This document shows positions 2,997 to 34,359 of a DNA stretch of 34,485 bases, piece by piece. The stretch's first letter is position 1. The number at the start of each line of letters is the position of its first letter. Below the pieces are notes generated by a model. The model searched no databases and was not told the origin of the DNA. It saw only the letters and a program-made list of their open reading frames with translations. Origin of the DNA: Nonlabens sp. (GTDB taxonomy: Bacteria; Bacteroidota; Bacteroidia; Flavobacteriales; Flavobacteriaceae); NCBI GenBank assembly GCA_020630715.1, contig JAHDIQ010000012.1, positions 43,674 to 78,158 on the forward strand. Reading direction: 5' to 3'. The position numbers and the translations under genes were made by a program.

Positions 2997-3666
2997 TTTG
3001 TAATGCCTTTATTGCGGTTACTAGTGTGTTTTCAATGGTTGCTTTGGTCGCTACGGTTACTTTTACTGCAAATTTTCTAGCAGTGATGGCGGTGGTTTCT
3101 CCTATGCAAATGGCATGATGGAGTTGTTTTGGATTCGCTTTCGCGAAAGCGTAAACACCACGAGGACTATAGCACAAAACAGCATCAAAAATACGATCAT
3201 AAGACCGCATCACCATTTGTGTATCATATACTTTTACCTCTTTAAAGTTTATTTGTGACGTCTGAAGTGCCTGTGGTAGTTCATCCCTTCTATGAACACC
3301 AGTTATGTAGGTGAATGCATCCTGTGAATGATGATCCATAATATATCTAGCGAGTGCTTTACCGTTAGGAGAAATGTGAATGACCTGACATCCTAAATCT
3401 CTTAATTGCTTACTTGTTTTTGCACCTACCACATAGCAGTTTTTTACCCGATTAAGATGAGGTATGATCGATGGGATAGCGTTACTACTAGTAATAATAA
3501 CATGGTCTAAAGCAACATCATTTAAATCATGTTCAACAGGAGTTACTTTTAATGCGTTGTAATGCGTGATTCCTATGCCAGATCCTAGAGCTAATTCCAG
3601 TTGGGCTGGAGCCAGCTTTTTTGTACTTAGAATGCTTTTTGAAATAGTAGAATGAGACTGAATCAT
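2989..3666 (-). CDS. hemD: Uroporphyrinogen-III synthase
   Basis: Cyclises hydroxymethylbilane to uroporphyrinogen III, feeding HemE. At 225 aa it is within the family range. Sequence conservation in HemD is weak. The call rests on the opening [11 protein letters not shown] (residues 12-22), the IITSSNAI segment (57-64), the late [10 protein letters not shown] segment (165-174) and the position immediately before hemE. It is the first gene of the operon. The recurrent palindrome CGCTTTCGCGAAAGCG lies inside it and encodes AFAKA at residues 173-177. The first Met is only 4 bases downstream of a possible -7 element, so the message may be nearly leaderless. hemA and hemC, which often precede hemD in flavobacteria, are not upstream here. 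Confidence 0.9.
3136..3151. repeat. Iterated palindrome CGCTTTCGCGAAAGCG, copy 1 (in hemD)
   Basis: Exact 16-bp palindrome inside hemD. It reads as AFAKA in that frame. The next bases are TAA, as in several other copies. Confidence 0.97.
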
Positions 3667-3670
3667 GAAG

Positions 3671-3678
3671 TAAAGGTA
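3671..3678 (-). promoter_or_regulatory. Possible -7 element of hemD operon
   Basis: TACCTTTA on the minus strand, a one-base variant of the Bacteroidota TAnnTTTG. It ends 4 bases before the hemD ATG. No TTG is seen 17-23 bases upstream, so the assignment is tentative. If correct, the leader would be about one nucleotide. Confidence 0.4.
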
Positions 3679-3840
3679 ATTAGAGAGACATAAAGTATAA
3701 GTTTGGTTGTTTAAAATTAACCTTTGTTTAATGAATGTATCTCAAACAACATTATCTCGCTGTTTATTTATTAATCTTTAGTAAAGTTTATGGTCTCTAC
3801 TTCATTTTATACGATCTTTATCCTGAAAAGAGTATTAATG

Positions 3841-3848
3841 TATTTTTG
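3841..3848 (+). promoter_or_regulatory. Possible -7 element of the Crp/Fnr gene
   Basis: TATTTTTG matches TAnnTTTG exactly and ends 5 bases before the first ATG at 3854. Transcription starting about 4 bases downstream would leave almost no leader for that ATG, or about 14 bases for the in-frame ATG at 3866, which has GGAG at 3856-3859. Confidence 0.5.
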
Positions 3849-3853
3849 AAATA

Positions 3854-4432
3854 ATGGAGCTACCTATGTTTTTTAGGCAGCTTTCTGGTGCTAGTGATCA
3901 ACCTAGCCTAGAATATGCTGAGCAAATTTTTAACCGATTAGAATCTAGAAAAGTAAAGAAAAATCAAACCTTACTACGTGCTAGAACGATTCCTAACGAG
4001 TTGTTTTTTATTAAAAAAGGTCTGGTTAAAGTAAGTGTACAGGATGAAAAAGGCAATCATCATGTTTGTGACTTTCATGCAGAAAATGAGGTCGTAGGAT
4101 CTATTCATGGCTATTTACTTCAAAAAAGATCTGACTTAATCATTACCTGTTTAGAACATACAGAGGTTTTATGTCTCAATTTTCAAGATTTTGAGTTTAT
4201 CAGTCAGTCATATCAAGGTTTTAAAACCAGTTTTTACGAGCTTGTTTTTAAATTTGAACATCGCAGATTTATCGATAAGAGTATGATGATCGCACAAGAT
4301 GCAAGATCCAGATATGAGGTATTTATAAGTAAACATCATGCCATTGTGGATCGTATACCGCTTAAGGATGTTGCTTCTTATTTAGGTATTAAACAGCAAT
4401 CTTTAAGCAGGTTGCGACGTGATATGCAGTAG
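3854..4432 (+). CDS. Crp/Fnr-family transcriptional regulator
   Basis: A 192-aa protein with an N-terminal cyclic-nucleotide-binding-type beta-roll (about residues 20-130) and a short C-terminal helix-turn-helix (about 165-192; the recognition helix includes IKQQSLSRLRR). This arrangement is typical of the many Crp-like regulators of Bacteroidota. There is no Cys cluster for an Fnr-type iron-sulfur centre, so oxygen sensing is not indicated. It diverges from the haem operon and shares a 187-base intergenic region with it, making hemD a candidate target by position only. The start is ambiguous: ATG 3854 (near-leaderless) or ATG 3866 (Met5, preceded by GGAG). Confidence 0.88.
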   Translation: MELPMFFRQLSGASDQPSLEYAEQIFNRLESRKVKKNQTLLRARTIPNELFFIKKGLVKVSVQDEKGNHHVCDFHAENEVVGSIHGYLLQKRSDLIITCLEHTEVLCLNFQDFEFISQSYQGFKTSFYELVFKFEHRRFIDKSMMIAQDARSRYEVFISKHHAIVDRIPLKDVASYLGIKQQSLSRLRRDMQ

Positions 4433-6806: not shown

Positions 6807-6822
6807 CGCTTTCGCGAAAGCG
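6807..6822. repeat. Iterated palindrome CGCTTTCGCGAAAGCG, copy 2 (intergenic)
   Basis: Exact 16-bp copy between nadD and gpsA, preceded by TATTT and followed by GAATAAT. Confidence 0.97.
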
Positions 6823-9546: not shown

Positions 9547-9562
9547 CGCTTTCGCGAAAGCG
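9547..9562. repeat. Iterated palindrome CGCTTTCGCGAAAGCG, copy 3 (intergenic)
   Basis: Exact copy just after the ALDH terminator, with flanks GATTT and TAACC. Confidence 0.97.
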
Positions 9563-13740: not shown

Positions 13741-13756
13741 CGCTTTCGCGAAAGCG
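13741..13756. repeat. Iterated palindrome CGCTTTCGCGAAAGCG, copy 4 (intergenic)
   Basis: Exact copy 53 bases upstream of the SPFH start, followed by TAAT. Confidence 0.97.
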
Positions 13757-13894: not shown

Positions 13895-14638
13895 TTAATT
13901 TCTACCATTTTCATCGGGATATAATTTGTGTACTGGATCGCTTTGCCAGATTTCCTTAGTTTCTACACATAATGCGGTAAGCGGTCCTTTATAAGCAGCT
14001 GCAGTATCTACGTTCCATAAATTTGCGGCATTTATAGGTGTATGTTTTCCTAATCGTGACGTAGGTGTATGACCTATAAAAATTTCTTTAAACAGTTTTA
14101 ATCTATTAGGATACCGATCGTTATCTGGTGATAAATTAGGATCTATACATAGTGCCATTTCCCATAGGGTGCGATCCCAGCAAGTGATGTTCTTATAATA
14201 CTCATATTCTGGGCCGTTGAGGTTATGAAATCCTGCATGAAAATAGCCGTTGTTGTTTTGATCAACGTAGTAGTTATGCAAGGATTCAAAGAAAGCGATA
14301 TGTTTTTCTATATCTCGCGCATCACGGTTTTTATAGTTTTCTATAGTTGTCGCACCACCATGATGCAACCACATTTCATTATGGGTTTTGGTTTTTAGAT
14401 AATTTAAAAACAGTTCATCATGATTTCCACGTAGGAAGATAGGAGCAGTATGGTTGTTGTTATTTCGCTTTCGAGAAAGCGAGATTAGAAACTCTACCAC
14501 CTCATAACTTTCTGACCATCCGTCTACATAGTCACCTAGGAAAATGAGTCTGTCGCTGGGTTGTATTTCCAGCCGTTCTATAAGTTGCGTTAGCGCTTTA
14601 AATGCGCCGTGTATATCGCCTATGACTAATGTTCTCAC
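13895..14638 (-). CDS. PPP-family metallophosphoesterase (Ser/Thr phosphatase-like)
   Basis: A 247-aa calcineurin-like phosphoesterase with the metal-binding motifs GDIHG (7-11), GDYVDG (35-40) and GNHDE (71-75). A distal GHTP motif and a segment with NVDTAAAYKGPLT (near residue 214) are also present. This set suits a PPP-type protein phosphatase or ApaH-like dinucleotide hydrolase; which one cannot be told. The start is GTG at 14638, overlapping the stop of the AlbA_2 gene (GTGA), with the motif-bearing strand beginning three residues later. A one-mismatch copy of the iterated palindrome encodes LSRKR at residues 54-58, in a variable loop. Confidence 0.88.
   Translation of the reverse strand: MRTLVIGDIHGAFKALTQLIERLEIQPSDRLIFLGDYVDGWSESYEVVEFLISLSRKRNNNNHTAPIFLRGNHDELFLNYLKTKTHNEMWLHHGGATTIENYKNRDARDIEKHIAFFESLHNYYVDQNNNGYFHAGFHNLNGPEYEYYKNITCWDRTLWEMALCIDPNLSPDNDRYPNRLKLFKEIFIGHTPTSRLGKHTPINAANLWNVDTAAAYKGPLTALCVETKEIWQSDPVHKLYPDENGRN
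14466..14481. repeat. Iterated palindrome, copy 5 with one mismatch (in phosphatase gene)
   Basis: CGCTTTCGAGAAAGCG: the second G of the central CGCG is reached through one C-to-A change, so the palindrome is broken by one base. Flank TATTT matches other copies. Confidence 0.9.
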
Positions 14639-18808: not shown

Positions 18809-18809
18809 G

Positions 18810-19133: not shown

Positions 19134-19244
19134 GGTTTAAGCTTTGAGTTGTTAGAATCAGTAAGTTACCGAAAGATAAAACATATCTATTGTTTTTATC
19201 ATGTAGTTTTAGCTAATTTAGTGGATCACAATAAATGAAACTTC

Positions 19245-19835: not shown

Positions 19836-19838
19836 AAA

Positions 19839-20576: not shown

Positions 20577-20592
20577 TAGGTAATTTCTTAAA

Positions 20593-20623
20593 TTGTAAGA
20601 ACTACTAAAATAGAATAAATTTG
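20593..20623 (+). promoter_or_regulatory. Promoter of recQ
   Basis: TTG (20593-20595), 20-base spacer, TAAATTTG (20616-20623): a full match to the Bacteroidota consensus. The ATG lies 37 bases downstream. Confidence 0.65.
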
Positions 20624-20660
20624 TATTACAATTAATTCAACGCCACACAAACTAATATAA

Positions 20661-22808
20661 ATGAAACAATTAGAACTTCTCAAAAAGCACTTCGGGTACG
20701 ATAGTTTCCGGCCATTGCAGGAACAAATTATTAATGATGTATTAGATCATAAAGATTTAATGGTAGTCATGCCTACTGGTGGCGGAAAATCCATGTGTTT
20801 TCAATTACCATCATTAATGCTAGATGGAATTACACTAGTGATCTCGCCATTAATTGCTTTAATGAAAGATCAGGTAGATTCTTTAAAGGCAAACGGTATT
20901 CATGCTGGTTATTTTAATAGTTCTCAAGATAGTTCACAACAACAAGAGTTAATAGCAGCTTTAAATTCTAAGAGTTTAAAACTTCTTTATGTCGCACCAG
21001 AAAGTATTCAACTACTTCAAAATTATTTACAGCCTAAAGATGTTGCATTAATTGCAGTAGATGAAGCTCATTGTATTTCTACATGGGGACATGATTTTAG
21101 ACCAGCCTATACACAATTAACTTATCTTAAAAAGTCCTTTTCACAGGCTAGTATGATTGCACTTACAGCTACCGCAGATCGTGCAACACGTGAGGATATT
21201 AAAAAACAGCTTGATATTTCTGATGCACAGGAATACGTAGCGTCCTTTGATAGGCCTAATCTTACTTTAGAGGTGCGACCTGGAAACAACAGACTGGCGC
21301 AACTACGTCAATTTTTGAAAAAATATAAGGATGAATCTGGAATCATCTACTGTTTGAGTAGAAAATCCTGTGAAAAACTAGCAGATCAGCTCTCTGGTTT
21401 AGGATATTCTGTGGCAGCCTATCATGCAGGATTGGAACACCGCTTTCGCGAAAGCGTACAAGAACAATTCATTAAAGATGAGATTAAAATTGTGTGTGCG
21501 ACGATCGCATTTGGTATGGGAATCGATAAATCAAATGTGCGTTTTGTGATTCACTATAATATGCCAAAAAACATTGAGGGCTATTATCAGGAAATAGGTC
21601 GCGCTGGTAGAGATGGTGCGGATTCAAATGCGCTTTTATTTCACAGCTATGCAGATGTAATCCAGCTACGTAATTTTGCGATGGATAGTGGTAATAGTGA
21701 GGTGCAAATTGCAAAACTGGAACGTATGAAACAGTTTGCAGAAGCACTTACCTGTAGAAGAAGGATGTTGCTATCTTATTTTAATGAATATCTGGATACA
21801 GATTGTGGTAATTGTGATGTATGTTTAAATAAGCCTGATTTTTTTGATGCAACGGTGCTTGCTCAAAAAGCATTAAGTGCTGTTTATAGAATGAAAGAGC
21901 AAGCGTCTTTAAATTTATTAATTGATGTACTGCGTGGTGCTCAAAATGCTACCGTTATAGAAAGCGGCTTTCAAACCATTAAAACCTATGGTGCTGGTAA
22001 AGATATTTCGTGGAATAACTGGCAGCAATACATTATACAACTGATTAATCAGGGATTACTAGAAATTGCATTTCATGAATACAATCATTTAAAGTTAACA
22101 CCACAGGCACAGGCAGTTTTATTTGAGAATCAACCTGTACAACTTGCAGTGATTCCTAAACCAGAAGAACTAGCGGCAAGAAAATCTGCCGTAGAACAAT
22201 TACCTAGTGATGTTAATAAGGAATTATATGAAGCCTTGCGTAAGTTGCGCATGCAACTAGCTAGTCAGAAAAATCTGGCGCCTTACATGGTTTTTAGTGA
22301 TGTTACTTTAAAGGATATTGCAGCTAGAATACCATTAGATAAAGAAGAGTTTGAGGATATCACAGGAGTAGGAGCGCACAAATTAGAAATCTATGCTAGT
22401 GATTTTTTAAGTCTTACCCAAGAATATAAAATGATGCGTACTAGTGATTTTGTCTATCGTGTAGCCACATCATCACCTAAGAAAAAGAAAACACCTAAAA
22501 CGGATACTGTTTTTGAAAGTGTTCAAATGTACTGGGATGGAAAGACTGTAGAAGAAATTGCTATCATTAGAGAACTAAAAGAAGATACTATTTTAGGTCA
22601 TTTAAGTAAACGTTACATAAGTCATAAGGATGTAGACATCTCGCCTTATATTAATATCAGTGATGTAGAAAATATAGAGAGTAAATATGACTTGTTTAAA
22701 GAGCATAATGCGTTAAAACCGCTTTATGAACATTTCAAAGGTTCTTATTCTTATGGCATTTTAAGGCTAGCAATCACGCTTATAGAGGCAAACGTAAAAG
22801 CAATATAA
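20661..22808 (+). CDS. recQ: ATP-dependent DNA helicase RecQ
   Basis: A 715-aa 3'-5' superfamily 2 helicase for recombination and fork repair. Walker A is MPTGGGKS (37-44), motif II DEAH with the RecQ aromatic loop (134-150), and motif VI ends EIGRAGRDG (311-319). The RQC zinc cluster is Cys365, Cys382, Cys385 and Cys388, followed by a winged helix. An HRDC domain lies at about 515-595, and a Bacteroidota-type C-terminal tail at about 615-715. The iterated palindrome encodes RFRES at 261-265, between helicase motifs in the second RecA-like domain. The next gene starts one base after the stop. Confidence 0.97.
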   Translation: MKQLELLKKHFGYDSFRPLQEQIINDVLDHKDLMVVMPTGGGKSMCFQLPSLMLDGITLVISPLIALMKDQVDSLKANGIHAGYFNSSQDSSQQQELIAALNSKSLKLLYVAPESIQLLQNYLQPKDVALIAVDEAHCISTWGHDFRPAYTQLTYLKKSFSQASMIALTATADRATREDIKKQLDISDAQEYVASFDRPNLTLEVRPGNNRLAQLRQFLKKYKDESGIIYCLSRKSCEKLADQLSGLGYSVAAYHAGLEHRFRESVQEQFIKDEIKIVCATIAFGMGIDKSNVRFVIHYNMPKNIEGYYQEIGRAGRDGADSNALLFHSYADVIQLRNFAMDSGNSEVQIAKLERMKQFAEALTCRRRMLLSYFNEYLDTDCGNCDVCLNKPDFFDATVLAQKALSAVYRMKEQASLNLLIDVLRGAQNATVIESGFQTIKTYGAGKDISWNNWQQYIIQLINQGLLEIAFHEYNHLKLTPQAQAVLFENQPVQLAVIPKPEELAARKSAVEQLPSDVNKELYEALRKLRMQLASQKNLAPYMVFSDVTLKDIAARIPLDKEEFEDITGVGAHKLEIYASDFLSLTQEYKMMRTSDFVYRVATSSPKKKKTPKTDTVFESVQMYWDGKTVEEIAIIRELKEDTILGHLSKRYISHKDVDISPYINISDVENIESKYDLFKEHNALKPLYEHFKGSYSYGILRLAITLIEANVKAI
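21441..21456. repeat. Iterated palindrome CGCTTTCGCGAAAGCG, copy 7 (in recQ)
   Basis: Exact copy. It encodes RFRES here, a different frame from the hemD, recJ and helicase copies. Confidence 0.97.
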
Positions 22809-22809
22809 T

Positions 22810-23295
22810 TTGAAAATAGATCAATTAGAGTCAGGATATTTTGGCATAGGCATAGAACATCCTAAAACTCCAGAGAATTTAGGAGTCTTATGGCGTAGTG
22901 CGCAGAACTTTGGTGCTAGTTTTATATTTACTGTAGGTCATCGTTATTCAAAGCAAGCTTGTGACACTCACGATGCGGTAAAGGCAATACCTTATTTTCA
23001 CTATAAAGATTTTGAAGAGTTTTATTCCCACTTACCTAAAGGCGCTATGATTATAGGAGTAGAGTTAGATGAACGCGCAGTGGATTTAAAGGATTTTAAA
23101 CATCCACGTAATTGTGTTTATTTACTAGGAGCTGAGGATCATGGTTTAACAAAGAATGCAATACATAAATCACATCACTTAGTGAAATTTAATACACCTA
23201 AAAGCTTGAACGTTGCTGTCGCTGGTAGTATCATTATGTATGATAGAAACGTGAAAGGAACTTCTATTTATGTAAAAGGTATACCAAAATCGTAG
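22810..23295 (+). CDS. TrmH-family (SpoU) RNA 2'-O-methyltransferase
   Basis: A 161-aa SPOUT-fold methyltransferase. The three SpoU motifs are present: PENLGVLWRS (21-30, with Asn23 and Arg29), YLLGAEDHGL (101-110) and SLNVAVAGSIIMYDR (129-143). SAM-dependent 2'-O-methylation of tRNA or rRNA is expected, but the target nucleotide is unknown. The start is TTG at 22810, one base after the recQ stop, and no in-frame ATG occurs before the motifs. The weak start codon next to recQ suggests translation depends on ribosomes finishing recQ. Confidence 0.9.
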   Translation: MKIDQLESGYFGIGIEHPKTPENLGVLWRSAQNFGASFIFTVGHRYSKQACDTHDAVKAIPYFHYKDFEEFYSHLPKGAMIIGVELDERAVDLKDFKHPRNCVYLLGAEDHGLTKNAIHKSHHLVKFNTPKSLNVAVAGSIIMYDRNVKGTSIYVKGIPKS

Positions 23296-23364
23296 CTGAG
23301 GTACTATAAAGCTTGAAAAAATGAAATAAATTGATAATTAACCATTTAGATGATTAGATAATAC

Positions 23365-23372
23365 TACCTTTG
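23365..23372 (+). promoter_or_regulatory. -7 promoter element of the cold-shock gene
   Basis: TACCTTTG, exact consensus, 28 bases before the ATG. This leaves a short leader, unlike the long 5' leader of E. coli cspA. Confidence 0.55.
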
Positions 23373-23400
23373 TGACTTATTAATTTATTATTTTATTACA

Positions 23401-23595
23401 ATGAAACAAGGTACCGTAAAATTTTTCAACGAATCAAAAGGATTTGGATTTATCGTTGAAGATGGGACAGATCAAGATTGCTTCGTGCATGTAACTGGAC
23501 TTATCGATGAGGTAAGAGAAGGCGACAAAGTAGAGTACGAAGAGAAAGAAGGTAAAAAAGGAATGAACGCTGTAAACGTAAGAGTAGTACAGTAA
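23401..23595 (+). CDS. Cold-shock domain protein
   Basis: A 64-aa single cold-shock domain that binds single-stranded nucleic acid. It has the opening MKQGTVKFFNESKGFGFI, RNP1 KGFGFI (13-18) and an RNP2-like CFVHV (27-31) in which Cys replaces the more usual Val or Ile. It is very acidic towards the C-terminus. It is monocistronic, with its own promoter and a strong terminator 25 bases after the stop. Whether expression responds to cold cannot be told. Confidence 0.95.
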   Translation: MKQGTVKFFNESKGFGFIVEDGTDQDCFVHVTGLIDEVREGDKVEYEEKEGKKGMNAVNVRVVQ

Positions 23596-23620
23596 TTCTA
23601 AATATATTTTTTTGAATCTT

Positions 23621-23650
23621 AAAACCCGACTCATAAGAGTCGGGTTTTTT
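23621..23650 (+). terminator. Rho-independent terminator of the cold-shock gene
   Basis: AAACCCGACTC, loop ATAA, GAGTCGGGTTT followed by further T residues. A perfect stem. Confidence 0.95.
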
Positions 23651-23839
23651 AGTATTATATGTTTTTAATAGTGTAAAAAATCTAAACCCTAGTTTTTATA
23701 CTTTCTATATACATTCAAATAACCACAACAATTGGTTCTAGGTATAACTTAATTCTACAGCTAGTTAATGGAGCGTATATGTATCAATTGAACTGATTTA
23801 TTCATTGATTTTAAATCAATAGTTATGGTATTGCTTCAA

Positions 23840-23859
23840 TATACACATAGATGTGTATA
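23840..23859. promoter_or_regulatory. Perfect 20-bp dyad TATACACATAGATGTGTATA
   Basis: Nine-base arms around AG. No T run, and no gene start within 150 bases. It resembles a dimeric repressor site but no target is evident. Confidence 0.4.
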
Positions 23860-23977
23860 ATCGCTTTATTAGTTTCATTAAATGATAGTAGTCCATCTTA
23901 GACTTATTACTTAATATCATGGGATCTTAATGTTATAGACCACTGTAAATTCTTTGGTATAAAAAATAGAGCATAAA

Positions 23978-24003
23978 AAAAGCGCCTCAATTGAGGCGCT
24001 TTT
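23978..24003 (-). terminator. Rho-independent terminator of ompA
   Basis: Perfect palindrome AAAAGCGCCTCAA/TTGAGGCGCTTTT, 21 bases beyond the ompA stop. On the minus strand the T run continues, giving a strong terminator. Confidence 0.92.
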
Positions 24004-24024
24004 AAGTAATTTAAAGTGTGTGAT

Positions 24025-25404
24025 TTACTTTACTAAGTTAATCTCTACACGTCTGTTTTGTGCTCTTCCGGCTTTTGTACCATTATCTGCAACTGGTCTT
24101 GATTCACCATAACCAGCAGACATTAATCTAGAAGCGTTAATTCCGTTAGAAACTAAGTAGTTCATTACAGATTGAGCTCTTGACTCAGATAATTTCTGGT
24201 TGAAAGAATCTGAACCTGAACTATCTGTATGACCATCAATTGTAAATCTAGAATCTGGATACTTCTTAAGGATCGCCGTAATATCTGACAATACTCTTGC
24301 AGATTCAGCCTTTATAGTAGACTTAGACGTATCAAATAAGATCGTTTTAGCGTACTGATTTAGTTGTGCTTGTTCTTGTGCAGAAGGTGCAGCTGGCTTA
24401 GGACAACCTTGTAAAGATTTTAAACCTGGTGTGTTAGGACATTTATCATCTGCATCTACAACTCCATCTTTATCTGCATCTTTAATAACTGGACATCCAT
24501 TATTAGAAGCAGGACCTTTTTCTGTTTTACAACGGTCTTTACTATCTACTACACCATCACCATCAGTATCAGGATCTGGACAACCTTTGTTGTAAGCCGG
24601 ACCAGCCACATCTACACAATTATCATCTTTATCTAGAGTACCATCACCATCAGTATCAGGACAACCCATATTTTCTGCAGGACCTGCATTGTTAGGACAG
24701 TTGTCTTTACTGTCTTCAATTCCATCATTGTCGCTATCAGGACAACCCATGAATTCTTTTAAACCTGCTACTTCAGGACAGTTGTCCTTGTCATCATAGA
24801 TACCATCACCATCTGTGTCAGTTCCACCCCATTTCCATTTAAGACCAGCTACATGTTGGAAGTGTTTAGGGTTAGCATCTTCAAAAGCATGTCGGTAAGT
24901 CGTTTGTAGGTTAAAAGCTAAGTTTTCCAGTAAATAAATATCAAATCCGATTGTCCCATTAAATGTTCCAAATCCTTGATCGTCTAACCAAGTGTATCCA
25001 CCACCTATTCCTAGAAATGGATCAAAAATAGCTTGGGTACTCAATGCTTTACCAAAATTGTATTGTAAGCCTGCGTCAAGTGCAGCAAATGAATTCTTTG
25101 GAATTGAATTGTCTCCAGCTCTTTCAATTTGGTTTACAGAAAATGCTCCAGTTGCAATTACTCCGTCTCCAACGTAGTAACCGATTTGCACACGTGATGG
25201 GAAAGGCATGATATTATAGTGATCGTAATTAAAAAATTCATCAAAGTATCCACCTAGACCTGCATCTTCTTCACCTACTGGATAAAGATCGATTGCATTT
25301 ACTCCTAAAGAGAAGGCCCATCTGTTACCTTCATCTTGTGCGTTCATTGTAGTAGCGCCTAGCATAAGGACTGCCACTAAAGCAATTTTTAAAATATTTT
25401 TCAT
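24025..25404 (-). CDS. OmpA-family outer membrane protein with thrombospondin type-3 repeats
   Basis: 459 aa from the preferred start. A signal peptide (1-22, ending TTMNA/QDEG) is followed by an eight-strand-type beta-barrel (about 25-190), five Ca-binding thrombospondin type-3 repeats (about 195-335; DTDGDG, DSDNDG, DTDGDG, DTDGDG and DADKDG, each followed by a xxCP-type Cys), and a C-terminal OmpA peptidoglycan-binding domain (about 350-459; [10 protein letters not shown] and [17 protein letters not shown]). An upstream in-frame ATG at 25425 would add MKHKNPN; the ATG at 25404 gives a normal signal peptide. It likely links outer membrane and cell wall and is probably abundant. It has its own promoter and terminator. 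Confidence 0.94.
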
Positions 25405-25430
25405 GTTGGGGTTTTTATGTTTCAACTGTG

Positions 25431-25460
25431 CAAAATTAATCTCTTCTGTATTATTTACAA
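25431..25460 (-). promoter_or_regulatory. Promoter of ompA
   Basis: On the minus strand: TTG (25460-25458), 19-base spacer, TAATTTTG (25438-25431). The chosen ATG at 25404 follows 26 bases later; the ATG at 25425 would be only 5 bases from the -7 box, which supports the downstream start. Confidence 0.65.
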
Positions 25461-25518
25461 GGGTTTACACTATTTTTTTTATCAATTATTTAAACAAAAC
25501 GAACTAATTACTCACTTC

Positions 25519-26712
25519 TTAGATCACTTCCAGCTGTTTTCCTACTTTTTTAAATGCAGCAATTGCTTTGTCTAGGTGCTCCTTTTCATGAGCAGCACTT
25601 AATTGAACTCTAATTCTTGCTTTCTCTTTTGGTACAACTGGATAGAAAAATCCTATTACATAAATTCCTTCTTCTAATAACGCATCTGCCATTTTCTGTG
25701 ACAATTTTGCATCGTACAACATTACAGGAACTATCGCACTTTCTCCATCTATAATATCAAAGCCTAAAGCCATCATTCGTTCTTTGAAATACTTAGTATT
25801 GCTTTGCACTTTATCGATTAATGCAGTACTACTATCAATAAGTTCTAAAGCTTTTATAGATGCTCCTACAATTGATGGTGCTAGCGAATTTGAAAATAAA
25901 TATGGTCTAGAACGTTGTCTTAAAATTTCTATCACTTCTTTATTTGCACAAGTATAACCACCCATAGCGCCACCTAAGGCTTTTCCTAAAGTCCCTGTAA
26001 TGATGTCCACACGACCTAAAACACCTTTTGCCTCTAAAGTGCCACGGCCAGTATCTCCTAAAAATCCTGCGGCATGGCATTCATCTACCATAACTAGTGC
26101 ATCGTACTGATCTGCTAGGTCACATATTTTATCTAATGGTGCTAGTACTCCATCCATAGAAAACACACCATCTGTAACGATTACTTTAAATCGTGCACCA
26201 TCCGCAGTGGCTTGTTGTAATTGTTTTTCTAAATCTGCCATGTCTGCGCTGGCATATCTATACCTAGCGGCTTTACATAAACGTACGCCGTCTATAATAG
26301 AAGCATGATTTAAAGAATCTGATATGATCGCGTCTTCTTTAGTAAGCAATGGTTCAAAAACACCACCATTTGCATCAAAACATGCAGCGTATAAGATCGT
26401 GTCCTCACAACCGTAAAAATCTGCTAGCTTTTGTTCTAGTTCTTTATGAATGTCTTGCGTTCCACAAATGAAACGTACAGAGCTCATACCAAAACCATGA
26501 GAGTCTAATGTTTTTTTGGCAGCTTCTACTACTTTTGGATGTGATGAAAGTCCTAAATAGTTATTAGCACAAAAATTAATGACCTCACTACCATCATCTA
26601 ATTTGATGACCGCATCTTGTGGTGAAGTGATAATGCGCTCTTTTTTATAAAGGCCTTGACTTTTAATTTCTTCTAATTCGGCTTGTAGGTGTTCTTTTAT
26701 GCTTCCGTACAT
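25519..26712 (-). CDS. kbl: Glycine C-acetyltransferase (2-amino-3-ketobutyrate CoA ligase)
   Basis: A PLP-dependent alpha-oxoamine synthase that cleaves 2-amino-3-ketobutyrate with CoA to glycine and acetyl-CoA, the second step of threonine breakdown. At 397 aa it is the exact family size. The PLP lysine is Lys244 in GTLGKALGG, with the cofactor Asp-x-Cys-His motif VDECHAAGF (209-217) and the [14 protein letters not shown] opening (46-59). Serine palmitoyltransferase and KAS-type relatives share the fold, but the opening MYGSIKEHL favours Kbl. The partner threonine dehydrogenase (tdh) is not in the window. Confidence 0.94.
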
Positions 26713-26732
26713 AGTTGTTTATTTATGGAGTT

Positions 26733-26740
26733 CAAAGGTA
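26733..26740 (-). promoter_or_regulatory. -7 promoter element of kbl
   Basis: TACCTTTG on the minus strand, 20 bases before the kbl ATG. It lies within the short gap after the helicase gene, giving kbl its own promoter in addition to any read-through. Confidence 0.55.
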
Positions 26741-26760
26741 GTCATCCCACCTTTATTTTT

Positions 26761-29700
26761 CTAGTTCCAGACTTCTTGTTTCAGTTGGTCAGTGTATAAC
26801 AATACCTTTTTATCAATCGTATATCCCATGGAGATTAATAATTGCGCATAATGATTTAATTGCGATACATATTTTTCTGATGGTTGTCCTGTTTTGTAAT
26901 CTATAATAGTTACTCGATGATCATTTAAAATTAAGCGATCTGGAATATAACTTTGTCCTTGTGGTGTGAGAATCGCGTGTTCATTTACAATGGTTTGATC
27001 ACCTTTAAAATAAATTTCAAATTCAGGATGATTTAAAATGCTTTTAACGGTGGTAATTAATTCTTCTTGCTCTACACCTGTTAAGGAGTGATCATTATTA
27101 ATTTTTGAAATAACTACTGGTAGATCATTTATCGTAGTTATATATGCCATATAATCATGAAGCAAGTTTCCCTTTATGATAGCGGTATTTGCGCCAGTTG
27201 CCCATAATAATCCTTTACGAGTAGAAAACGAAACTTCAGTATGTTGATTCACGCCGTAAGGAGCTAATTCTAGATTTTTGCTTTCTTTTTCTACCTCGCT
27301 CACACGTGGTGCGTTTCCTAAATGATATCGAGTACTCAATTCATTTTCTGTAACGTGATCATGATGATTGTTAAAATAGTTTTCTAGCAATTGCGCATAA
27401 TTAATTCCATCACCTTGTTTTTTATAGGTTCCAGAAATGTATAATTGCTCGCACGATCTGGTAAACGCAACGTATAATAGATTGATATGATCCATTTGAA
27501 CTTTCATAATGTGTTCATCATAAACCGCAGATGCATTTTCTGGATAACTGCTTGCTTCCTTACTTAGTCCTATATATAGGTGATCAAATCCTGCATGATC
27601 ATCTGCATGTACAGGAATCCATCCAGTATCGTTTCTACTTTCTTCAATTCCTTTGTCTAAATGCGGTACGATTACTACAGGAAATTCCAGTCCTTTAGAT
27701 TTATGAATGGTCATTACCGTTACTGCATCGTCATCTGGTGTTGCTGGCACGCTCAATTTATCAGCTTCTTGATCCCATTCTTCTAGGAAACCAGATAAGC
27801 TGATCTCGTAACCGTTGCTGTAATTATATGCAAATTCTAGAAAGGCTTGCAGTCTAGGATCTGTATGGTTGAATAAATTTAAGCTAGATGCGGTAAGTTC
27901 TATGGCGTTGAATAATTGCGCTTTCGCGAAAGCGGAATCAACATCACCATTATTACTACTCATTAAACTGTTGCATAATTGAGAAACGGTCTGTTTTAGA
28001 TGCGTTTTAAGGAACTCATGCTGATCATCTAGCTCATGAAATGCGCTGTAAGCCAGTAAAAAATCCAACTTTACGGCCTGTTGATCTGGTGCCTGAATCA
28101 TGCGTAAGGTAGCCACCAGTAATTGCACGCGACTACTAGCATGAACCAGTAAACTTTGCCCAGAAACCACTTTAATCTGATGTTCATTAGTCAGGAATTG
28201 TGCAATGTCGTGACCTTCACTATGGCGACGTACTAAAATACAAATCTCACCATATTGAAATCTAGATTCTAGCGCCTGATTTATTTGCTCTAGCACAATA
28301 AGTGGATAGGCGTTAGGCAAGCTTTCATATCGGTCTTGTGCGATCTCTTTTGCGTCCTCATTCAGTAAATCAAACTGTACGTAACCACCTTTTTTTGAGG
28401 TAGGTTCTTGGCGTAAAAACTCTAAATACAATTGTTGATAAACAGGATGTTTTAATTCATTCCCATAAAACTCAAAAAAGGCATTGTTGAACTCAATAAT
28501 TCTGTTGTAACTGCGCCAGTTAGTTCCTAGCGTTTCATTCTTTTTAGGTACCTGAAATAAATCATCCTTATTCAGCAGATTCAGAAATTGATCTGCATCA
28601 CCACCGCGCCATCTATAAATAGATTGTTTTGCATCACCTACCAGCATGAGCGATCCTGCGTTACCTTTTTCATCCAGACTAACTAGCGCATTGCTTATTA
28701 ATGGCTCTAGATTATTCCATTGCATGGTGCTGGTATCCTGAAATTCATCTACGAAGTAATGGCGGTATTTCTCGCCCAATCGTTCATAAATAAATGGCGC
28801 TGGTTGATCCTTAATTTCTTTTTCTAGAATGCCATTAAACTCATAAATAGGAAGCAGTTGTTCTTCCTCTTTTATAGCGTCAATCTCCTTTAATAATTCA
28901 TTAATTAATGAAATAGGTACAATACGTTTTAGGACATTTTGATAAAATAAAATCACTCCATACCGATCGGTATATTGATGGGCTAACTCAATTAATTGTG
29001 GTCGCAAACTTTCAATGATTGACTCATTTGCACTGTTAGTGTCTTTGTGAGCTAATTGTGCAGTTTCCATATCTGCAACGTAAGCCACGTCTGGATTTAC
29101 CACAAATAAACCATTTGCGGTCGTGGTAATGAATTTATAGACACGACCAGATTTGTAGTAAAAATCATCTGCTTGTAAACCGTTCTCATTGATTTGTCTT
29201 ACAATAGGTTGTGCAAGCGATTGAATATAGGTAGTAGATTCTTTTATGTGATTTTTAAGTGTCTTTCTTAACTTCTTAAAATCCTCAATGGACTTATCCT
29301 TAAGTTGGACTAAATACGGATAGTGATTTTCATTTTTAATCAAATCTGCGATGTTTTCTAGATCATAACTAATGTCCCAGCTTTTATCTTGGTCTATTTT
29401 TGATAAAGAAAAATTCACGAGAATATCTGTAAGTTCCGGATCAATTCCTGCTCTAGCAATTAATCTATTGATGGCTTTTGAAATAACAGCACTAGTATCT
29501 AGAGCAACTTCAAATCCAGGATCGATGTCAATGTCCCTAGCAAAAGTTCTTAAAATACGATGGTTAAAAGCATCTATGGTTACAATGTCAAAAGCGCTGT
29601 AATCATGCAATAGCTTTTTGTGAATTTGTCTTGCTTTTTTAATCGTCGCTTCTGGGGTGCTTCCGGTGGCATCTATGATGTGATTAAAAATCCCATAACT

Positions 29701-29916
29701 ATCTTTAGGAATAGGTTGCAAGGTGAAATTCTCCAGATGCATTAGGATGCGCTCTTTCATTTCTGCAACTGCTTTATTAGTAAATGTAACTGCTAGAATA
29801 CGACGATAGCCGTCACTGTAATCATGCTTAAATAGTAGGGTAAGATAATCTCTGGCTAGCGTATAGGTTTTACCAGATCCAGCACTTGCACTATAAAAAA
29901 TTGTAGGAGTATCCAT
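26761..29916 (-). CDS. RecB/AddA-like UvrD-type helicase with C-terminal nuclease domain
   Basis: 1051 aa from the ATG at 29916. Superfamily 1 helicase: Walker A SAGSGKT (11-17), Walker B VDEFQDTS (389-396), and MTIHKSKGLEFP (motif V region). The last 100 residues form a PD-(D/E)xK nuclease: LLHDY (early His), IPDRL (Asp993), IIDYKTG (Asp1006, Lys1008) and QLNHYAQLL. This suits the AddA/RecB subunit of a double-strand-break resection complex. Its AddB-like partner is not adjacent. The frame stays open upstream to 30207, but that stretch is Ser/Cys-rich, overlaps hflX and lacks homology, while ATG 29916 places Walker A at residue 11 and follows a -7 box. Confidence 0.92.
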   Translation of the reverse strand: MDTPTIFYSASAGSGKTYTLARDYLTLLFKHDYSDGYRRILAVTFTNKAVAEMKERILMHLENFTLQPIPKDSYGIFNHIIDATGSTPEATIKKARQIHKKLLHDYSAFDIVTIDAFNHRILRTFARDIDIDPGFEVALDTSAVISKAINRLIARAGIDPELTDILVNFSLSKIDQDKSWDISYDLENIADLIKNENHYPYLVQLKDKSIEDFKKLRKTLKNHIKESTTYIQSLAQPIVRQINENGLQADDFYYKSGRVYKFITTTANGLFVVNPDVAYVADMETAQLAHKDTNSANESIIESLRPQLIELAHQYTDRYGVILFYQNVLKRIVPISLINELLKEIDAIKEEEQLLPIYEFNGILEKEIKDQPAPFIYERLGEKYRHYFVDEFQDTSTMQWNNLEPLISNALVSLDEKGNAGSLMLVGDAKQSIYRWRGGDADQFLNLLNKDDLFQVPKKNETLGTNWRSYNRIIEFNNAFFEFYGNELKHPVYQQLYLEFLRQEPTSKKGGYVQFDLLNEDAKEIAQDRYESLPNAYPLIVLEQINQALESRFQYGEICILVRRHSEGHDIAQFLTNEHQIKVVSGQSLLVHASSRVQLLVATLRMIQAPDQQAVKLDFLLAYSAFHELDDQHEFLKTHLKQTVSQLCNSLMSSNNGDVDSAFAKAQLFNAIELTASSLNLFNHTDPRLQAFLEFAYNYSNGYEISLSGFLEEWDQEADKLSVPATPDDDAVTVMTIHKSKGLEFPVVIVPHLDKGIEESRNDTGWIPVHADDHAGFDHLYIGLSKEASSYPENASAVYDEHIMKVQMDHINLLYVAFTRSCEQLYISGTYKKQGDGINYAQLLENYFNNHHDHVTENELSTRYHLGNAPRVSEVEKESKNLELAPYGVNQHTEVSFSTRKGLLWATGANTAIIKGNLLHDYMAYITTINDLPVVISKINNDHSLTGVEQEELITTVKSILNHPEFEIYFKGDQTIVNEHAILTPQGQSYIPDRLILNDHRVTIIDYKTGQPSEKYVSQLNHYAQLLISMGYTIDKKVLLYTDQLKQEVWN
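27919..27934. repeat. Iterated palindrome CGCTTTCGCGAAAGCG, copy 8 (in helicase-nuclease gene)
   Basis: Exact copy. It encodes AFAKA at residues 662-666 of the helicase, between helicase motifs. Confidence 0.97.
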
Positions 29917-29922
29917 GAATCT

Positions 29923-29930
29923 CAAAGGTA
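29923..29930 (-). promoter_or_regulatory. -7 promoter element of the helicase-nuclease gene
   Basis: TACCTTTG on the minus strand, ending 6 bases before the ATG at 29916, so a leader of about 2-3 bases is predicted. Confidence 0.5.
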
Positions 29931-29983
29931 AAAAAATAGCATCAGGTAATGGTGTGATTACACATAATTTCCTTAATCTTAAG

Positions 29984-30010
29984 CAAGGTTTATAATAGCT
30001 GTAAACCTTG
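29984..30010. promoter_or_regulatory. Dyad operator candidate upstream of hflX
   Basis: Perfect 9-bp arms CAAGGTTTA (29984-29992) and TAAACCTTG (30002-30010), 9-base spacer. The right arm ends 8 bases before the hflX -7 box, so a bound protein would cover the -33 region. It has no T run. Confidence 0.55.
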
Positions 30011-30018
30011 TAAAATGG

Positions 30019-30026
30019 TATCTTTG
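30019..30026 (+). promoter_or_regulatory. -7 promoter element of hflX
   Basis: TATCTTTG, exact consensus, 17 bases before the hflX ATG. The usual -33 TTG is missing at normal spacing; the dyad lies there instead. Confidence 0.55.
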
Positions 30027-30043
30027 TTCTTATATTACAGTTA

Positions 30044-31267
30044 ATGTTAGAAAGAGAATCCCACGAATACGAAAAAGCCATACTGGTAGGTGTGGTTACA
30101 CAACAACAATCAGAAGAAAAACTGGTAGAATACCTAGATGAACTGGAGTTTCTAGCGTATACGGCTGGTGCTAGTATTAAAAAACGCTTTTCGCAAAAAC
30201 TAGCCAAACCTAATCCTAAAACTTTTTTAGGATCTGGAAAGATGGAAGAAATTCAAGCTTATGTAAAGTCCCATAATATTGATACGGTCATTTTTGATGA
30301 TGAGCTGTCACCAGCACAGCAAAAAAACATCGAAAAAATCTTAGAAACTAAGATTATCGATCGTACCTATTTGATTCTGGATATTTTTGCACAGCGCGCA
30401 GAGACTAGTTATGCACGCACACAGGTGGAATTAGCGCAGTATGAATATTTACTGCCACGATTAGTAGGATTATGGACTCACCTTGAGCGCCAGAAAGGTG
30501 GAATCGGGATGCGTGGTCCTGGTGAAACAGAAATCGAGACGGATAGACGTATTGTACGCGATCGCATTTCTCTATTGAAGAAGAAATTAAAAACCATTGA
30601 CAAACAAATGGCTACCCAGCGCGGTAACCGTGGTAAAATGGTGCGCGTTGCCTTAGTAGGATATACTAACGTGGGAAAAAGTACCTTAATGAATGTCATT
30701 GCAAAAAGTGAGGTATTTGCAGAAAATAAACTTTTTGCAACTCTAGATACGACCGTGCGCAAAGTAGTCGTGAAAAACCTGCCTTTTCTACTTACAGATA
30801 CGGTAGGGTTTATACGCAAGTTACCTACTCAATTAGTAGAGTCATTTAAATCTACGCTGGATGAAGTACGAGAATCAGATTTGTTGCTTCATGTGGTTGA
30901 TATCTCGCACGGCAGTTTTGAAGATCACATTGCTTCTGTAAATAAAATTCTGGATGAGATTGATGCAGTAGATAAACCTACCATCATGGTTTTTAATAAA
31001 ATAGACCAGTATCAGGCTGTGGATTATGATGAGGATGATCTAGAATATGAAAGAAGTAGTGCAAATTACACCTTAGAAGACTGGAAACGCACTTGGATGG
31101 CGCGCATGGGTGAGAATGTGGTTTTTATTTCTGCTATTGAAAAGGAGAATATGGATAGTTTCCGTAAAAAAGTGTACGATCAGGTGCGTGAGATTCATGT
31201 TACTAGGTTTCCATATAATGCATTCCTTTTTCCAGATTGGGAAGATCTAGTTGAAAGTCAAGAGTAG
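30044..31267 (+). CDS. hflX: GTPase HflX
   Basis: Ribosome-associated GTPase that splits stalled or hibernating 70S ribosomes in other bacteria. An N-terminal ND1-type domain and helical linker run to about 190 (with the family hallmark GGIGMRGPGETEIETDRR at 152-169). The G domain follows: G1 GYTNVGKS (206-213), G3 DTVGF (252-256) and G4 NKID (about 318-321). At 407 aa it is normal. It diverges from the helicase gene. The rest of its own unit is empty, with 205 bases before the next gene. Confidence 0.96.
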   Translation: MLERESHEYEKAILVGVVTQQQSEEKLVEYLDELEFLAYTAGASIKKRFSQKLAKPNPKTFLGSGKMEEIQAYVKSHNIDTVIFDDELSPAQQKNIEKILETKIIDRTYLILDIFAQRAETSYARTQVELAQYEYLLPRLVGLWTHLERQKGGIGMRGPGETEIETDRRIVRDRISLLKKKLKTIDKQMATQRGNRGKMVRVALVGYTNVGKSTLMNVIAKSEVFAENKLFATLDTTVRKVVVKNLPFLLTDTVGFIRKLPTQLVESFKSTLDEVRESDLLLHVVDISHGSFEDHIASVNKILDEIDAVDKPTIMVFNKIDQYQAVDYDEDDLEYERSSANYTLEDWKRTWMARMGENVVFISAIEKENMDSFRKKVYDQVREIHVTRFPYNAFLFPDWEDLVESQE

Positions 31268-31281: not shown

Positions 31282-31297
31282 CGCTTTCGCGAAAGCG
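31282..31297. repeat. Iterated palindrome CGCTTTCGCGAAAGCG, copy 9 (intergenic)
   Basis: Exact copy 14 bases after the hflX stop, flanked by CATTT and TAATT as in other intergenic copies. Confidence 0.97.
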
Positions 31298-32393: not shown

Positions 32394-32406
32394 GAAAAAT
32401 CAATAG

Positions 32407-32433
32407 AGCCCTCAAAAATTTTGAGGGCTTTTT
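32407..32433 (+). terminator. Rho-independent terminator after the PfkB gene
   Basis: AGCCCTCAAAA (32407-32417) and TTTTGAGGGCT (32419-32429), followed by a T run. It separates the kinase from the purF-type gene, whose own -7 box starts just after. Confidence 0.92.
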
Positions 32434-32436
32434 AAT

Positions 32437-32444
32437 TACTTTTG
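32437..32444 (+). promoter_or_regulatory. -7 promoter element of the purF-type gene
   Basis: TACTTTTG, exact consensus, 16 bases before the ATG and immediately after the preceding terminator. Confidence 0.5.
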
Positions 32445-32460
32445 ACTTTTAGAAAACATC

Positions 32461-34359
32461 ATGAGTGATCCATTAAAACATGAGTGCGGTATTGCACTAA
32501 TACGTCTCTTAAAACCGCTAGAGTTTTATAAAGAGAAATACGGTACTGCTTTTTACGGTATCAATAAGATGTATCTGATGATGGAGAAACAGCACAATCG
32601 TGGTCAGGATGGTGCTGGATTTGCTAGTATTAAACTAGATGTAGAACCAGGACAACGTTATATCTCTAGAGTGCGCAGTAATGCGGCACAACCTATTCAG
32701 GACATTTTTTCACAGATTAATGAGCGCATTAATGGTGAATTAACCACTTCTCCAGAGATTAAAAATGATGTCGCTGCACAGAAAGCACAAATACCTTATG
32801 TAGGTGAGTTGCTTATGGGTCACGTACGTTATGGAACTTTTGGTAAGAACAGTATAGAAGCCGTTCATCCATTTTTACGTCAGAATAACTGGATGCACCG
32901 TAACCTGATTATGGCAGGGAACTTTAACATGACAAATGTGTTTGAGTTATTTGATAAGCTAGTAGAATTAGGACAGCATCCTAAAGACATGGCAGATACG
33001 GTAACCGTAATGGAGAAAGTAGGTCATTTTCAAGACCGTGAAGTTTCTAAATTATATAAAAAATTCAAAGCACAAGGTTTAAATAAACGAGAATCTTCCC
33101 CTAAAATCGCAGCCGAATTAAACGTTGCAAAAATCCTTAAAAAAAGTGCCAAAGACTGGGATGGTGGTTATGCTATGGCTGGTTTAATGGGTCATGGTGA
33201 TGCATTCTTATTACGCGATCCAGCAGGAATACGTCCTGCATATTATTATAAAGACGATGAGGTGGTTGTTGTAGCCAGTGAACGTCCTGTAATTCAAACG
33301 GCGTTTAATGTGCCTTTTGATGAAGTTCATGAACTAGATCCAGGTAAAGCGATCATCGTTAAAAAAGATGGATCTGTCACGATACCGCAAATCCAGAAAC
33401 CACTAGAACGTAAAGCTTGTTCTTTTGAGCGTATTTATTTTTCACGCGGTAGTGATGCAGAGATCTATCAAGAACGCAAGATGTTAGGGAAATTATTATT
33501 TCCTAAAATCATGGAATTCATAGATCATGATATTGATAATTCAGTGTTTTCATTTATTCCTAATACGGCCGAGACCAGTTTTTACGGAATGGTAGAAGCA
33601 GCTCATGAGGCTCTAGACGTTGAAAAACGTGAGGCTATATTAGCCGGTAATGGAAAGTTGACTAAAAAGCAGGTAGAGGATACGCTTTCGCGAAAGCTAA
33701 GAACCGAAAAAATAGCGATTAAAGACGCAAAACTACGTACCTTCATCACAGAAGATTCTTCACGCGATGATCTTGTAGCGCATGTATATGACGTGACTTA
33801 TGGTGTGGTTAAACCAGAAGATAATTTAGTTATTATTGATGATTCTATTGTGCGTGGTACTACCTTAAAGAAATCCATTCTTAAGATGATGGATCGTTTA
33901 AATCCTAAGCGTATTGTGGTAGTTTCTAGTGCGCCACAAATACGTTATCCAGATTGTTATGGTATTGACATGGCACGACTAGAAGGTCTTGTTGCTTTTA
34001 GAGCAGCACTAGCATTACATAAAGATCGTGGAACTTATGATATTGTAGAGCAAATCTATGATAAGTGTAAAACTCAAACTGAGTATAAAGATAAAGACGT
34101 TGTGAATTACGTTAAGGAACTTTATGATCCATTTACAGATCAAGAAATAAGCGATAAGATAGCACAGTTGCTAACAGATCATGACGTGAATACAGAAATC
34201 AAAATCATTTATCAAACCGTAGATAATTTACACAAAGCCTGTCCTAAAAATTTAGGCGACTGGTATTTTACAGGTGATTATCCTACAGTAGGTGGTAATC
34301 GCGTGGTAAACCGTGCGTTTATCAACTTCTATGAAGGAAATAGTGGTAGGGCTTATTAG
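32461..34359 (+). CDS. purF: Amidophosphoribosyltransferase (long Bacteroidota form)
   Basis: First committed step of purine synthesis: PRPP plus glutamine to phosphoribosylamine. The Ntn-type glutaminase domain starts with Cys9 in HECGIALI, so an 8-residue propeptide would have to be removed. QHNRGQDGAGF (about 45-55) and GHVRYGTFG (about 120-128) follow. The PRPP loop VIIDDSIVRGTT is at 457-468. At 632 aa it exceeds the roughly 500 aa of E. coli PurF, mainly through insertions in the middle and a C-terminal tail. Flavobacteria can also carry a shorter PurF, so this may be a second paralogue. A copy of the iterated palindrome encodes LSRK near residues 407-412. Confidence 0.9.
   Translation: MSDPLKHECGIALIRLLKPLEFYKEKYGTAFYGINKMYLMMEKQHNRGQDGAGFASIKLDVEPGQRYISRVRSNAAQPIQDIFSQINERINGELTTSPEIKNDVAAQKAQIPYVGELLMGHVRYGTFGKNSIEAVHPFLRQNNWMHRNLIMAGNFNMTNVFELFDKLVELGQHPKDMADTVTVMEKVGHFQDREVSKLYKKFKAQGLNKRESSPKIAAELNVAKILKKSAKDWDGGYAMAGLMGHGDAFLLRDPAGIRPAYYYKDDEVVVVASERPVIQTAFNVPFDEVHELDPGKAIIVKKDGSVTIPQIQKPLERKACSFERIYFSRGSDAEIYQERKMLGKLLFPKIMEFIDHDIDNSVFSFIPNTAETSFYGMVEAAHEALDVEKREAILAGNGKLTKKQVEDTLSRKLRTEKIAIKDAKLRTFITEDSSRDDLVAHVYDVTYGVVKPEDNLVIIDDSIVRGTTLKKSILKMMDRLNPKRIVVVSSAPQIRYPDCYGIDMARLEGLVAFRAALALHKDRGTYDIVEQIYDKCKTQTEYKDKDVVNYVKELYDPFTDQEISDKIAQLLTDHDVNTEIKIIYQTVDNLHKACPKNLGDWYFTGDYPTVGGNRVVNRAFINFYEGNSGRAY
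33683..33697. repeat. Iterated palindrome, copy 10 (14-bp core, in purF)
   Basis: GCTTTCGCGAAAGC exact at 33684-33697; one outer base is lost. It reads in the third frame as LSRK. Confidence 0.95.

Follow-up and report, generated by a model that had tools for sequence, protein, structure and literature searches.

The 14-bp palindrome GCTTTCGCGAAAGC occurs 609 times in the genome of the Nonlabens strain (Flavobacteriaceae) from which the window, a stretch of 34,485 nucleotides, was taken, and its copies form an evenly spaced lattice of sites. We tentatively prefer, at somewhat less than an even chance, the explanation that the palindrome is the site of a putative dimeric protein which organizes the chromosome roughly every 5 kb, a DNA-uptake signal being its close rival.

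Abundance and taxonomic range of the palindrome

The preliminary description of the window had claimed an extreme over-representation on the basis of ten copies of a 16-bp form. All ten were found, seven as perfect 16-mers and three with one mismatch, versus a mean of 0.04 copies in 100 shuffles of the window in which up to three mismatches were allowed. Four of the perfect copies are intergenic, as had been proposed (6807–6822, 9547–9562, 13741–13756, and 31282–31297). The other perfect copies lie inside a minus-strand ORF (2989–3666), where the copy at 3136–3151 reads AFAKA, in a RecQ-like gene (21441–21456, reading RFRES) and in a UvrD-like helicase gene (27919–27934, reading AFAKA). The degenerate copy at 14466–14481, which is coding and has a neighbor 725 bp away, does carry the single mismatch reported, in a central position. 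The two copies reported at 18684 and 33684 as 14-bp cores are present and actually match at 15 of the 16 positions, the mismatch being at one end; they occupy positions 18683–18698, in a RecJ-like gene, reading AFAKA, and positions 33683–33698, in a gene matching glutamine amidotransferase domains, reading TLSRK.

Genome-wide counts bear out the over-representation and show that it had been understated: the 609 copies compare with 0.0006–0.005 expected under Markov models of orders 4 to 2, and the reversed pattern, counted in the same way, gave 0. Nor is the motif confined to this region, since 214 copies are spread across the 1.06 Mb of the same genome that was read, and 92 were present in 20 sampled pieces of a second Nonlabens chromosome. 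All the genomes searched of Nonlabens, a genus of marine bacteria, carry the motif (23/23, with 288–857 copies each), as do all those of a second genus, g225 (18/18, 369–905 copies), and the single genome searched of a third, g209 (408 copies). In a draw of 397 Flavobacteriaceae genomes, the remaining 391 hold 0–19 copies each, and at most one copy per genome was found in 354 genomes of the phylum beyond the family. The motif had been called flavobacterial: the family was right, but hundreds of copies occur in only three of the 237 family genera sampled. The copies checked in non-carrier genera are located in metal-efflux genes, in agreement with a family search. Genus-specific palindromes of another sequence were also looked for, and no repeated 12-bp palindrome was detected in 15 non-carrier genera (20 pieces taken, five shorter than 15 kb dropped). 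Listings of the open-access literature showed no description of the motif.

Two cultured Nonlabens phages, which are close relatives, carry no copies, and in cultured phages and plasmids the extended motif finds only weak, partial matches. An integrase or transposase was identified in two (L050 and L059) of six motif-bearing viral contigs, from among the matches listed, in which a few of the proteins were scanned; these contigs constitute a biased set because they were picked for holding the motif.

Spacing, placement, and conservation of the sites

The gaps between sites in the genome of the window have a coefficient of variation of 0.53, versus 0.99 for random placement, and none of 10,000 simulations gave a value as low. 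In the second Nonlabens chromosome, the variance-to-mean ratio over the 20 pieces is 0.33, which again indicates even spacing, and an additional check was also even among the matches listed (the first 100, 100, and 61 positions). Copies with one mismatch sit in the gaps, at a median distance of 2963 bp from the nearest perfect copy versus 1121 bp for random points (p = 9e-11, n = 27, after dropping three of the 30 copies that were not flanked by perfect ones); in a second species, the same tendency was observed (p = 0.035, n = 5). The mean spacing amounts to one site every 4–9 kb, or some 300–900 sites per genome.

Based on gene positions from a simple in-house gene caller, 132 of the 214 copies lie in genes, where all three frames are used, and 82 are intergenic, giving a density about six times that of coding DNA. 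Convergent intergenic regions are the poorest, with 0.34 sites per kb versus about 1, and contain five of the 82 intergenic sites (p from 0.014 to 0.002 depending on the length cut). Low-GC stretches are also site-poor: the 11 lowest-GC 5-kb windows hold four sites, and two of the largest gaps are low in GC (the gene readings there agree with a family search).

Most of the palindrome is needed, and its flanks are symmetric and G-poor. The intergenic copies extend to a 24-bp palindrome surrounded by a symmetric, outward depletion of G which reaches about 28 bp from the 14-mer; the flanks are weaker in genome G234 (12 sites). Outside the full palindrome, the innermost words show little or no enrichment (TTCGCGAA, 14 versus 10.2 expected; TCGCGA, 123 versus 85.5; and CGCG), and the one-mismatch 16-mers deviate mostly at the outer base (63/88). 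Isolated half sites were considered and rejected: they are somewhat enriched, GCGAAAGCG for example occurring 33 times outside the palindrome versus 1.4 for shuffled words, but the majority of ten contexts inspected proved to be near-copies of the whole motif.

When sites were projected onto orthologous places, a perfect site was found in 422 of the 711 aligned projections (59%), versus 274 of 5006 (5.5%) for control 14-mers; these counts refer to ordered pairs, in which a shared site is counted several times, and 747 non-aligning projections were dropped. Projection of coding sites in one direction found 11 of 13 kept, and in the opposite direction 11 of 18; the proteins concerned are 49–84% identical, and sites with no aligned homolog were dropped. 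The motif at the RecQ gene (21441) is present at the equivalent place in L248 and L250 and absent in L249 and L251, the RecQ proteins being all about 80% identical with or without it. In comEC, the palindrome occurs at the same codon in 7/7 genomes from the other two genera that carry it, and two genera with this codon have ComEC proteins that are 35–38% identical. Beyond comEC, the comparisons between genera involve few sites (0/2 from the genome of the window to G234, 0/2 in the opposite direction, and 1/4 from G250 to the genome of the window). That hundreds of regularly spaced copies often stay in place while the surrounding genes change points to a genome-wide DNA-binding system. Even spacing, long symmetric flanks, positional conservation, and the DNA-uptake alternative are all additions to the preliminary description.

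Possible functions of the lattice

We infer from these patterns that the palindrome is bound by a protein, as a dimer, in an architectural role. A putative sequence-specific and probably dimeric protein, encoded by the three carrier genera, would bind the palindrome and act on the whole resident chromosome, where some 300–900 bound sites might make up a lattice that anchors or loads the packing machinery, by bridging, clamp loading, or the setting of domain boundaries. This reading is supported by the near-lack of enrichment of the inner words outside the 14-mer, the even spacing, the symmetric flanks, and the conserved places, as well as by the scarcity of sites in convergent DNA, unlike terminator-linked uptake signal sequences (USS), and by the presence of an integrase or transposase in two of the six viral contigs scanned together with the lack of the motif in the cultured phages. 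It is weakened because a motif driven by uptake would equally show even spacing, an intergenic excess, and a scarcity in low-GC DNA, because few sites apart from comEC document conservation between genera, because the G234 flanks are weaker, and because the viral contigs are a biased set and the two phages close relatives.

The rival signal would be a palindromic one of self-recognition: competent cells would favor site-bearing DNA, recombination would copy the site into homologous DNA, and molecular drive would spread and space it, in the manner of the Haemophilus USS and the Neisseria DUS. We regard this as possible, with a lesser probability than chromosome organization. Uptake sequences are described, in passages of PMC7811141 and PMC2397512, as relatively evenly distributed and scarce in newly acquired DNA, and the present motif shows hundreds of even copies, fewer in DNA judged acquired by the proxy of low GC, with the intergenic excess given above. 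The ComEC domain was found in all 30 carriers searched, but it does not discriminate carriers because 14 of 15 non-carriers have it too. The motif is palindromic, whereas the USS of Haemophilus and the DUS of Neisseria are not known to be so. According to passages of PMC7965970, Riemerella columbina, placed by its authors in the Flavobacteriaceae, shows natural competence and a preference for its own DNA, whereas Flavobacterium johnsoniae was not competent under the conditions used there. USS pairs often form terminators (PMC5217627), whereas the present motif is depleted in convergent regions. This depletion also argues against a rho-independent terminator repeat, which would be richest at gene ends, above all convergent ones, and bidirectional terminators or a dispersed REP-like mobile repeat seem highly improbable: the palindrome can form a 6-bp RNA stem and is in excess between genes, but the one site folded gave a z of -0.10, most copies are genic in three frames, and the spacing is even. 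A recombination, repair, or replication mark resembling Chi, or another genome-wide signal, is unlikely. Chi of E. coli occurs about once per 5 kb, a density of the same order, but the known examples of Chi are short and oriented, whereas the motif is long and palindromic.

The preliminary description had also drawn a parallel with HIP1 and left a methyltransferase target as an option; a nucleoid-protein site, another of its options, is the one we favor. The parallel holds as a description, since the palindrome is iterated and over-represented genome-wide in both genes and intergenic DNA. Passages of Elhai (2015; PMC4390886) tie cyanobacterial HIPs to methyltransferases and also report outer-base deviations for HIP1, but a methyltransferase making or keeping the present motif by recognizing its core is very unlikely: the inner words are not clearly enriched on their own, and the three families covered do not track the motif. 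PF00145 was found in 10/17 Nonlabens, 5/12 g225, 0/1 g209, and 10/15 non-carrier genomes, PF01555 (above the cut-off) in 9/17, 0/12, 1/1, and 7/15, and PF02086 in 4/17, 9/12, 0/1, and 7/15, respectively. An extra ParB/Noc-like protein was likewise disfavored, a single ParB_N match being present in 18 of 20 carriers and 28 of 35 non-carriers; no canonical parS was found within two mismatches in the chromosome parts read, outside which the origin may lie.

If the sites organize the chromosome, the evenly spaced lattice would be encoded in the sequence, and deleting sites or inserting new ones could serve to probe the size of chromosome domains. It might then represent an undescribed system of the Bacteroidota, in which one putative protein and an identical palindrome at hundreds of regular sites provide a ruler, marked about every 5 kb and written in the sequence, whose age would explain its presence in distinct genera, a proposal we make with slightly more reserve than that of an organizing role itself. 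If the motif serves DNA uptake instead, the signal would be palindromic and would belong to a phylum with no case described in the open-access listings. Under either explanation, it may tag DNA from the carrier genera; the copies checked elsewhere lie in metal-efflux genes.

HIP1 is commoner than the Nonlabens motif. Like HIP1 (GCGATCGC) of cyanobacteria, as presented in passages of PMC4390886, the motif is an iterated genome-wide palindrome found in some lineages only, with an unsettled function; unlike HIP1, it spans 14–24 bp with long flanks, requires most of the word, and is not tracked by the three methyltransferase families. It resembles the Noc and ParB sites (NBS and parS) in being a palindrome of similar length, but differs from them in its hundreds of copies, its half-site spacing, and the lack of a second ParB_N match in 18 of the 20 carriers. 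The NBS and parS palindromes are read by dimers, and they number in the tens, with a half-site spacing other than that of the Nonlabens motif. With USS and DUS, it shares hundreds of relatively evenly spaced copies, an intergenic excess, a scarcity in low-GC DNA, conservation at orthologous places, and flanks in which at least one base is scarce; unlike these sequences, it is palindromic, with two-sided flanks, a longer core, and site-poor convergent regions.

Abundance and taxonomic distribution

All ten copies of the 16-bp palindrome reported in the window by the preliminary description were confirmed, as was the intergenic position of four of them, the other six lying inside genes. The copy at 14466-14481 is the only one in the window that is broken centrally, and it is the nearest to a perfect neighbor (725 bp) among the 27 one-mismatch copies in the sample of this genome (1.06 Mb, 214 copies). 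The RecJ-like, RecQ-like, and UvrD-like genes, which share a 13-kb stretch (17105-30207), each carry one copy. A genome-wide excess was borne out by the Markov models of orders 2 to 4: the inner 14-mer occurs 609 times in the 2,978,537 bp (17 contigs), 0.005 to 0.0006 occurrences being expected, and the reversed-pattern control word is absent from this genome.

All 23 Nonlabens genomes searched, including that of the window, contain 288-857 copies of the 14-mer. Of 397 genomes drawn from 237 genera of the family, six showed high counts, namely four Nonlabens genomes, G234 (408), and G250 (857); the remaining 391 contain 0-19 copies each, at least one being present in 74. The genus of G250, g225, shows 369-905 copies in 18 of the 18 genomes searched, and that of G234, g209, is represented by this single genome. 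Outside the family, the maximum in the 354 genomes of the phylum searched was one copy, found in eight of them. The closest named relatives of the RecQ of the window are those of N. ulvanivorans and other Nonlabens (70-80% amino acid identity), which assigns the window to Nonlabens. Judged by this protein, G250 is as distant from Nonlabens (55% identity) as are the non-carriers that possess this ortholog (51-57%); the sole RecQ found in G234 was a more distant one (37%). A close RecQ ortholog was found in 22 of the Nonlabens genomes searched, but not in Nonlabens G017.

Structure, placement, and spacing of the sites

The 82 intergenic copies in the sample share a 24-bp palindrome, ATT[AT]CGCTTTCGCGAAAGCG[AT]AAT, and the outward strand is G-poor on either side of them: with positions numbered outward from the end of the 14-mer, the G content is 1-9% at positions 4-20, 20% at position 21, and 4-6% at positions 23-28, as compared with about 15% in intergenic DNA. 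A second Nonlabens genome (92 sites) and G250 (23 sites) show the depletion near the sites as well, and G234 (12 sites) shows it less strongly. When occurrences within the full 14-mer are set aside, the innermost words show little enrichment or are depleted (TTCGCGAA, 14 vs. 10.2 expected; TCGCGA, 123 vs. 85.5; CGCG, 1131 vs. 1487), whereas longer parts are enriched (TTTCGCGAAA, 12 vs. 1.4; CTTTCGCGAAAG, 6 vs. 0.04; CGCTTTCG, 26 vs. 5.9), as expected from near-copies of the full site.

The intergenic share (82/214) contrasts with the roughly 9% of DNA that is non-coding; it amounts to 39/92 in the second Nonlabens, 25/72 at the RecQ loci, 10/23 in G250, and 2/12 in G234. Divergent regions hold 27 copies in 25.5 kb, tandem regions 50 in 52.4 kb, and convergent regions only 5 in 14.9 kb, this scarcity having a p-value of 0.014 to 0.002 depending on the length cut. 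The coding copies are read as AFAKA (77), TLSRK-like (31), or RFRES-like (24) peptides. The first tenth of the gene holds 23 of these 132 sites, and AFAKA often lies, as judged by eye, within apparent signal peptides (e.g., L208, 7419-8606; contig C4 of this genome, 45554-47119).

The copies are evenly spaced: the coefficient of variation of the gaps is 0.53 vs. 0.99 with random placing, a value not reached in any of 10,000 simulations, and gaps shorter than 1.5 kb number 7 of 203, 54 being expected. Among the positions listed, under-dispersion was also found in G234, in G828 (g225), and in a contig of another Nonlabens (0.68-0.74; as low in 0, 3, and 6 of 10,000 simulations, respectively). 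Copy numbers in twenty 20-kb pieces taken around a second Nonlabens chromosome range from 3 to 7 (variance/mean 0.33, p = 0.003), and no gradient was seen over these pieces. One-mismatch copies fall in the gaps, their median distance to the nearest perfect copy being 2963 bp vs. 1121 bp for random points (n = 27, p = 9e-11); in a second species, n = 5 and p = 0.035. Two of the six largest gaps have a low GC content (0.314, with glycosyltransferase, cytidylyltransferase, and epimerase genes, and 0.321), and the other four have 0.36-0.37, one of them containing restriction-modification genes. A total of 4 sites fall in the 11 5-kb windows with the lowest GC content, as compared with averages of 0.7-1.2 per window in the other GC classes (Spearman 0.24, p = 0.0004). 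The closest pair in the sample, 222 bp apart (L201-L204, contig C10, about 333,600-333,850), borders a low-GC, restriction-modification-like island devoid of further copies, the copy-free stretches measuring 12.8 kb to one side and 15.3 kb to the other.

Conservation at orthologous places

Among 711 aligned projections at the RecQ loci of 19 Nonlabens genomes, including the window, 422 keep the perfect 14-mer, as compared with 274 of 5006 for nearby control 14-mers. At 68-72% nucleotide identity, 54.5% of the sites (n = 389) and 2.1% of the controls (n = 2857) are kept; below 68%, none of three sites is. Coding sites projected from this genome onto Nonlabens G022 are identical in 11/13 cases, the proteins being 49-84% alike, and in 11/18 cases in the reverse direction. 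Between genera the sites are few: 1/2 from this genome to G250 and 1/4 back, 1/1 each way between G022 and G250, and 0/2 each way between this genome and G234. In comEC, a gene chosen for its function and whose overlap with listed sites was spotted afterwards, the palindrome lies on one shared codon in all six g225 genomes examined and in G234 (e.g., L304 in G828; L306 in G234), the proteins of the two genera being 35-38% identical. This codon lacks the palindrome in all three non-carriers and all ten Nonlabens examined, G015 having a 13-base remnant there; in six of these ten, a copy lies downstream of comEC instead.

Copies elsewhere and possible roles

Twelve stretches from eight genomes of other genera with small clusters of the motif were opened (L208-L219). 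In the seven with listed genes (five genomes), each of the 23 copies falls within a predicted gene. The ten motif-bearing genes scanned there are metal-efflux or Fur-type genes, with matches to the RND efflux (ACR_tran), outer-membrane efflux, CusB/HlyD, P-type ATPase, and, once, Fur families. Some of these islands have a common pair of copies 933 bp apart. The motif may be a tracer of DNA from the carrier genera in these Flavobacteriaceae. Degenerate copies (1-2 mismatches) have a higher share there (17:34 perfect vs. 45:214 in the genome of the window, p = 0.013), which is only suggestive, the islands being partly related to one another; the ratio is 6:12 in the small sample from G234, as in the islands, 7:23 in G250, and 15:92 in G022. 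The cultured Nonlabens phages P12024S and P12024L (L268, L269) contain neither the motif nor TCGCGA, an empty 35.7 kb having a probability of 0.0007 at host density, although the two phages are close relatives. Some viral contigs, selected by motif presence, carry 2-4 copies each among the matches listed; the ten proteins scanned from six of them include an integrase (L050), a transposase (L059), and portal and capsid proteins (L101). The 12-kb L101 has three copies 4.5-6.5 kb apart. The 16-, 14-, and 12-base words were not found in the open-access library searched; judged by titles and the beginnings of abstracts, no description of the motif was found there, and the ten papers containing TTTCGCGAAA are not about it by title.

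Four features of the site, its length, its symmetry, its flanks on both sides, and its dependence on most of the palindrome, suggest that a putative dimeric protein reads it. An importance of the array in its entirety is suggested by the even spacing, the gap-filling near-matches, and the long conservation. Together with the scarcity in convergent regions, these features lead us to prefer, tentatively, a putative chromosome-organising protein acting at the sites. A DNA-uptake signal is a somewhat less likely alternative; this reading and that of a chromosome-organising protein have most of their predictions in common. That so few copies lie in convergent regions argues against terminators, and likewise against a plain copy of the pattern of the uptake sequences of Haemophilus (USS) and Neisseria (DUS), from which the motif departs in this respect.
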